Of a stretch of DNA of 64,000 bases, positions 23,081-23,359 are shown piece by piece. A program made the position numbers and the translations under genes. This stretch comes from Modestobacter sp. VKM Ac-2982 (GTDB lineage Bacteria; Actinomycetota; Actinomycetes; Mycobacteriales; Geodermatophilaceae). The notes beneath the pieces are model-generated. The model was not told the origin of the DNA. It saw nothing but the letters and a program-made list of their open reading frames with translations, and made no database searches. Position 1 is the stretch's first letter, and each line of letters opens with the position of its first letter. The stretch spans positions 248,001 through 312,000 of the forward strand of contig NZ_JAPVBL010000004.1 in NCBI RefSeq assembly GCF_026967935.1, given 5' to 3'.

Positions 23081-23359
23081 TCAGCAGCCGCCGGCGACGG
23101 CGGGCAGGATCGTGACGGAGTCGCCGTCCTTGACGGAGGTGTCCAGGGCACCGGTGAAGCGCACGTCCTCGTCGTTGACGTAGACGTTCACGAAGCGGTG
23201 CAGCTTGCCCTCGTCGGTGACCAGACGGCCCTTGATCCCGGGGTGCTGGCTGTCGATGTCGTCGACCAGCGCGCCGAGCGTGTCGCCGTTCCCCTGGACG
23301 GTCTTGTTGCCGCCGGTGTGGGTGCGCAGGATGGTCGGGATGCGGACCTCGATGGCCAT
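23081..23359 (-). CDS. cysO: Sulfur carrier protein CysO (ThiS/MoaD family) ending GGC
   Basis: A 92-residue beta-grasp sulfur carrier. [18 protein letters not shown] and the region [15 protein letters not shown] are near identical to mycobacterial CysO, which donates a C-terminal Gly-Gly thiocarboxylate to CysM. This copy ends AVAGGC, one cysteine beyond the Gly-Gly (bases 23081-23086 read GCAGCC on the plus strand). That residue looks like a built-in cysteine adduct. Mec next door is the enzyme that trims CysO-cysteine. Start ATG 23359 is unambiguous. Confidence 0.95.

Follow-up and report, generated by a model that had tools for sequence, protein, structure and literature searches.

In the chemistry of the sulfur carriers ThiS, MoaD, and CysO, a residue retained after the C-terminal Gly-Gly blocks adenylation of the glycine, and the CysO-cysteine adduct has the covalent form of a Gly-Cys end. 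QbsE, the carrier of a siderophore pathway, is made with residues past its Gly-Gly, a Cys-Phe cap that the JAMM protease QbsD removes. Strain CB00739, which we take to be Streptomyces platensis, has carriers of a similar kind. According to Dong et al. (2018), its carriers PtmS3 and PtmS2 likewise extend past the Gly-Gly, by Cys and by Met-Val respectively, and depend on the JAMM protease PtmS1 (PMC6006322, which also names QbsD of quinolobactin synthesis). Thiocarboxylic products disappeared in a mutant lacking the JAMM gene ptmS1, a loss from which the authors conclude that the capped carriers are used, but persisted in one lacking only ptmS2, a result they put down to redundancy of the two capped carriers (PMC6006322). 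A JAMM-dependent carrier capped by a single Cys, PtmS3, was already published, then, in 2018 (PMC6006322). The Ptm system, compared here by description, differs from the present one in making thiocarboxylic natural products rather than cysteine; given that ptmS1 lies in a cluster with ptmS2, PtmS3 could be a second carrier and not a CysO.

A close relative of the present protein is the CysO of Amycolatopsis (represented by the named relatives L099, L104, and L110), but its cap is Ala-Arg. Sasaki et al. reportedly found in 2014 that a JAMM protease has to take this cap off, and chain B of PDB 4n6e, presumably Amycolatopsis CysO, ends at Gly-Gly. In the mycobacterial CysO-Mec-CysM pathway, Mec frees cysteine and regenerates CysO in every cycle (PMC3227635); the same carrier, protease, and synthase genes, and a MoeZ-type activator, are found here too. 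The mycobacterial CysO chain in PDB 3dwg, of 93 residues, ends in Gly-Gly and appears bare, whereas the protein described here carries one Cys more. A literature search at the listing level found no published account of an encoded CysO-cysteine.

The window, by which we mean the whole 64,000-nucleotide stretch that was analysed, carries cysO between mec and cysM, and upstream of these stand clpS and a gene for a DUF2017 protein (Table 1). A 2006 compilation records an actinobacterial gene set in which a ThiS/MoaD-like protein and a JAB protein go with a cysteine synthase, with ClpS, and with a helical protein (PMC1779556, table row 4d). The 3' end of cysO reads GGC GGC TGC TGA, and translation of the minus strand from 23081 to 23359 confirms what a first-pass annotation had claimed, namely that the gene itself encodes an AVAGGC end. 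The Pfam ThiS score (64.6 bits against a cut-off of 22.5) identifies the product as a ThiS-type beta-grasp protein; it matches PDB chains 4n6e_B and 3dwg_C and has, as a sulfur carrier does, a Gly-Gly near its C-terminus (LPAVAGG, then Cys). With mec and cysM adjoining and a MoeZ in the genome the protein qualifies as a CysO, and with one encoded Cys past the Gly-Gly and a JAMM protease gene next to it, it also fits the capped kind of carrier. Five other genomes of the same genus encode a 100% identical CysO, and two named Modestobacter records (L032, L033) encode the identical protein.

Table 1. Features of the cysO region, with window coordinates.
Feature	Position	Strand	Basis
cysO, ThiS/MoaD-like sulfur-carrier protein, 92 aa, ends LPAVAGGC	23081..23359	minus	translation and Pfam ThiS
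TGC codon, C-terminal cysteine cap, between GGC (Gly91) and stop	23084..23086	minus	sequence and translation
TGA stop of cysO	23081-23083	minus	sequence
mec, JAMM metalloprotease, 157 aa	23497..23970	minus	Pfam Prok-JAB (PF14464), 104.1 bits
cysM, PLP-dependent cysteine synthase, 316 aa	22087..23037	minus	Pfam PALP; NCBIfam cysKM above cut-off
clpS, neighbour, part of the same actinobacterial gene set	24883..25179	minus	Pfam ClpS
DUF2017 protein gene, same gene set (span as searched, start provisional)	24374..24985	minus	Pfam DUF2017

The Prok-JAB domain of Mec has the HxH...D zinc ligands that are the rule for Mec-type JAMM proteases (by eye, HSH..D in HSHTATEARPSRTD), and a search with PF14464, one JAB-type Pfam model, returns Mec as the sole Prok-JAB match in the genome. 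The genome additionally encodes a MoeZ-type protein (L437) with an NYRD motif, the rule for MoeZ-type activators according to PMC3227635, and with a C-terminal stretch that looks by eye like a rhodanese.

Encoded residues past the Gly-Gly turn out to be common in CysO. Within the family Geodermatophilaceae, CysO was read in 107 of 112 genomes, the other five being assemblies that are 67 to 88% complete and give a weaker match or none. Gly-Gly-Cys ends 73 of the 107 proteins, 29 are bare at Gly-Gly, and 5 bear other tails, so that 78 are capped. The first-pass annotation had proposed such an alignment across the family and had named relatives lacking the Cys as grounds for refutation; the Cys is well represented but not universal, and relatives without it exist, bare in 29 cases, beside the 73 that have it. 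A sequencing error at the end of cysO is ruled out, because 73 of 107 family genes share the GGC ending.

For the wider class, Actinomycetes, we read 132 CysO loci, a selection from the better-scoring of 309 matching genomes among 393 searched that does not take in every match listed, and 93 of these are capped and 39 bare (L069, in which no Gly-Gly motif was detectable, is excluded from cap counts). The caps range from 1 to 49 residues in length, with AR in 11 of the 132 loci, MR in 7, SR in 6, a lone Cys in 6, Ala in 6, and many others, including S. CysO, then, does not generally stop at Gly-Gly, and tails are widespread among the CysO genes read. The earlier view that CysO ends in Gly-Gly and gains Cys only as a reaction product holds for the mycobacterial PDB chain but not for the class. 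The fetched flank of cysO holds a mec match at 107/107 family and 129/132 class loci, and the remaining 3 class genomes have Mec some kilobases distant or on a different contig; no capped CysO was found in a genome without Mec among the 132 class genomes with a CysO read. The encoded cysteine is a mostly ordinary observation, with a lead on Mec specificity.

Other sulfur carriers are far less often extended. This genome has four carriers of the ThiS family and only CysO is capped, while the ThiS-like L323, the paralog L324, and the MoaD-like L325 (the names of L323 and L325 being assigned by appearance) end in bare Gly-Gly. Among the best 30 family loci for each, all 30 ThiS-like and all 30 MoaD-like proteins are bare, and the second CysO-like carrier is bare in 29 of 30, the exception (L475) being Cys-capped. 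In g36, a genus of the class with large genomes, the second carrier has a Cys in one of eight genomes, L424 and not L417-L423, these eight being all the genomes of the genus in that search. Tails are therefore mainly, though not exclusively, a CysO matter. No mec or cysM match was found in the fetched flanks of these second-carrier loci (L417-L424, within about 1 kb, and L446-L475), and since Cys caps occur on two of them (L424, L475), the cap is not bound up with the CysM cycle. The L424 genome does encode a Mec. In the set of 20 loci to which L417-L424 belong, twelve (L417-L425, L427, L428, and L435) gave no mec match in the fetched flank; six of those twelve genomes were searched whole, and all six have one Mec match each, that of G505 lying just beyond the fetched flank. 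Some Mec hits had been reported with internal stops; realignment showed none of these within the aligned Mec, except in L441, where a stop stands at the end of the Mec frame.

Taking these observations together, we think it likely that the present protein is an ordinary CysO synthesised as a capped precursor, that Mec trims the Cys, and that the bare Gly-Gly end is then used by MoeZ and CysM. Translation would yield a CysO-Gly-Gly-Cys precursor, Mec from the adjoining gene would cut behind the second Gly and liberate cysteine, just as it acts on the CysO-cysteine adduct in each ordinary cycle, and the exposed Gly-Gly end would then be adenylated and thiolated by MoeZ for use by CysM. Mec probably trims the new protein ahead of its first cycle, a step that would be shared by the majority of the class CysO genes read. 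The first-pass annotation was right that the new protein resembles a CysO-cysteine adduct, in that the encoded Gly-Cys end shares its covalent form and mec adjoins the gene. It had gone on to suggest that the cap would need trimming and would so make Mec essential for maturation. The need for a JAMM protease in published capped carriers makes this need for Mec likely here; Mec already acts in every cycle, so that the cap would add a maturation step, not a first need for Mec. A further suggestion, that the cap may let cysteine demand be sensed, finds no support: a search of positions 20000 to 28000 against Rfam gave zero matches, and hence no known regulatory RNA near these genes, and close relatives switch between bare and Cys ends, an alternation that argues against a Cys-dependent function. 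The trimming step probably has no regulatory role.

The composition of the tails suggests how the protease may shape them. Outside the family, 140 distinct capped CysO proteins begin their tails with A in 71, S in 41, M in 12, C in 9, G in 3, R in 2, and T in 2 (23 of 80 named loci, L032-L054, were omitted from this count as family repeats). One of A, S, C, G, T, or M, a set picked post hoc, after the data had been seen, occupies the first place in 138/140 tails as against 29/118 at the second place, where 15 kinds of residue occur. The third place, too, is small in 62/75, largely Gly. When tails are collapsed to 52 distinct openings, the first place is small in 50/52, compared with 22/46 for the second (Fisher p 3e-8) and with 31/70 codons that follow the stop in bare genes (Pro codons accounting for 24), which serve as a proxy for unselected read-through (p 3e-10); both collapsed counts include family rows, and 5 of 57 openings, which resemble one Micromonosporaceae-type tail, were lost in collapsing. 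A paired swap test of residue diversity, which uses no preset residue set, reached the observed difference in 7 of 20000 swaps. Pro does not occur as first tail residue in any of the 140 class tails or of 13 tails from other classes. The rule is weaker beyond the class: 7 of 13 capped CysO proteins from elsewhere in the phylum, not chosen by their ends, begin with R, Q, H, or E.

We read the restricted first residue, followed by a variable second, as the mark of a protease that normally releases cysteine and must cut at that place. Ala, Ser, Gly, and Thr are near cysteine in size, Met less so, and cysteine we take to be Mec's normal leaving group. On this reading the spectrum of tails is a testable prediction of the residues that Mec can cut. 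We tentatively extend it to the proposal, which we think rather more apt to fail than to hold, that CysO tails are a record of Mec specificity in Actinomycetes: this family would have settled on Cys, so that the product adduct is made by the ribosome, each new carrier would pay out one cysteine at its first encounter with Mec, and a 3-base switch at the stop codon would toggle the dependence. For practical purposes, constructs and annotations that assume a bare Gly-Gly end of CysO will often be wrong.

The switch between the two family forms is small. The 29 bare family genes all finish in GGC TGA; the Cys-ended genes read GGC TGC TGA in 72 of 73 and GGT TGC TGA in the other, and the forms thus differ by a single 3-base unit at the stop codon. 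A slip across the Gly-stop junction (of CTG or GCT) adds Cys, whereas a slip inside GGC would add Gly, and slippage is the mutational route that these sequences suggest between bare and Cys ends. The Cys of the cap may then reflect both this 3-base slip and the acceptance by Mec of cysteine as its natural leaving group. A point mutation interconverting TGC and TGA is not favoured as the source of the two forms, a directly following second stop being present in 0/29 bare genes. Elsewhere, Cys caps stand before TAG (L426, L429) or after GGT or GGG, where one GGC/TGA slip could not have reached them, so this slip is not the sole route to a Cys cap. Five loci (L426-L430), L426 and L429 among them, were chosen because the match reached residue 92, and their Cys ends give no frequency.

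Whether the Cys itself is of use is a separate question. One alternative, compatible with trimming by Mec, is that any cuttable residue past the Gly-Gly costs nothing, because Mec acts on CysO in every cycle anyway, and that caps drift by slippage and stop loss, the Cys having no function. We would give this an even chance of being correct. On a tree of mec, cysO, and cysM from 107 family rows and 2 outgroup rows (a quick tree with SH-aLRT support only), the end must have switched between Cys and not-Cys 12 times or more, and well-supported branches make 5 of these switches unavoidable. The range of lengths and the many kinds of class caps, and the variation of the second carrier between bare and Cys (1/8 Cys in g36, 1/30 in the family), point in the same direction. 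The constancy of the codon does not. It is TGC in 73/73 Cys-ended family genes, with no single-residue replacement, and a crude parsimony count infers 91 G-to-C changes at fourfold sites of the same 73 genes; as G-to-C in TGC gives Ser, some Ser would be expected were the codon free. That TGC never varies, with Ser and Gly both a single step off and tolerated elsewhere, hints that the Cys as such is selected, but the argument is modest: of the 92 codons 68 are just as constant, and the two preceding Gly codons have each changed a single time, at the third position.

Far less probable is a regulatory gate on maturation, in which new CysO stays adduct-like until Mec is free and the supply of CysO is thereby tied to Mec activity or cysteine demand. 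The end is chemically identical to the adduct, the genome has a single Prok-JAB match, and Cys ends persist in 73/107 family genes; yet all 29 bare family loci keep mec and cysM adjoining, the two states alternate on the tree, most class CysO proteins have other residues or none, and the Rfam search was empty. We consider it more improbable still that the terminal Cys is retained and works by its thiol, for instance in a disulfide, as a metal anchor, or as an alternative sulfur acceptor, since for all the constancy of TGC in the 73 family genes a residue past the Gly-Gly would block Gly adenylation, and in relatives this place is taken by Ala, Ser, or Met or is empty.

The gap between mec and cysO (23360-23496) contains a GC-rich hairpin without an Rfam match, and the fold of the gap is slightly better than that of shuffled sequences (z -2.43; 3 of 200 shuffles as good).

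Several tails stand out individually. Three relatives with fragmented assemblies (L211, L214, and L216) have, in place of a Cys or bare end, a basic six-residue tail, SAAGKR, SVARKR, and SAVGKR respectively. L062, L063, L066, L067, and similar Actinoplanes and Micromonospora loci have a long Ala-rich hydrophobic tail past the Gly-Gly, and in Micromonosporaceae the tail ALGFAAAAALLG or AFGFAAAAAI, with variants, recurs between species. In two family loci (L209, L215) and three from the class (L139, L223, and L238) the CysO tail repeats the last strand and ends again in bare Gly-Gly, L215 with four last-strand repeat units; several cutting and loading sites within one protein are a possibility in these cases. 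Finally, at L405 (cysO on the minus strand, 1773-1498) CysO and CysM form a natural in-frame fusion at GG/AAHD, with a mec-like match upstream, and the carrier would need to be cleaved from CysM in order to function.
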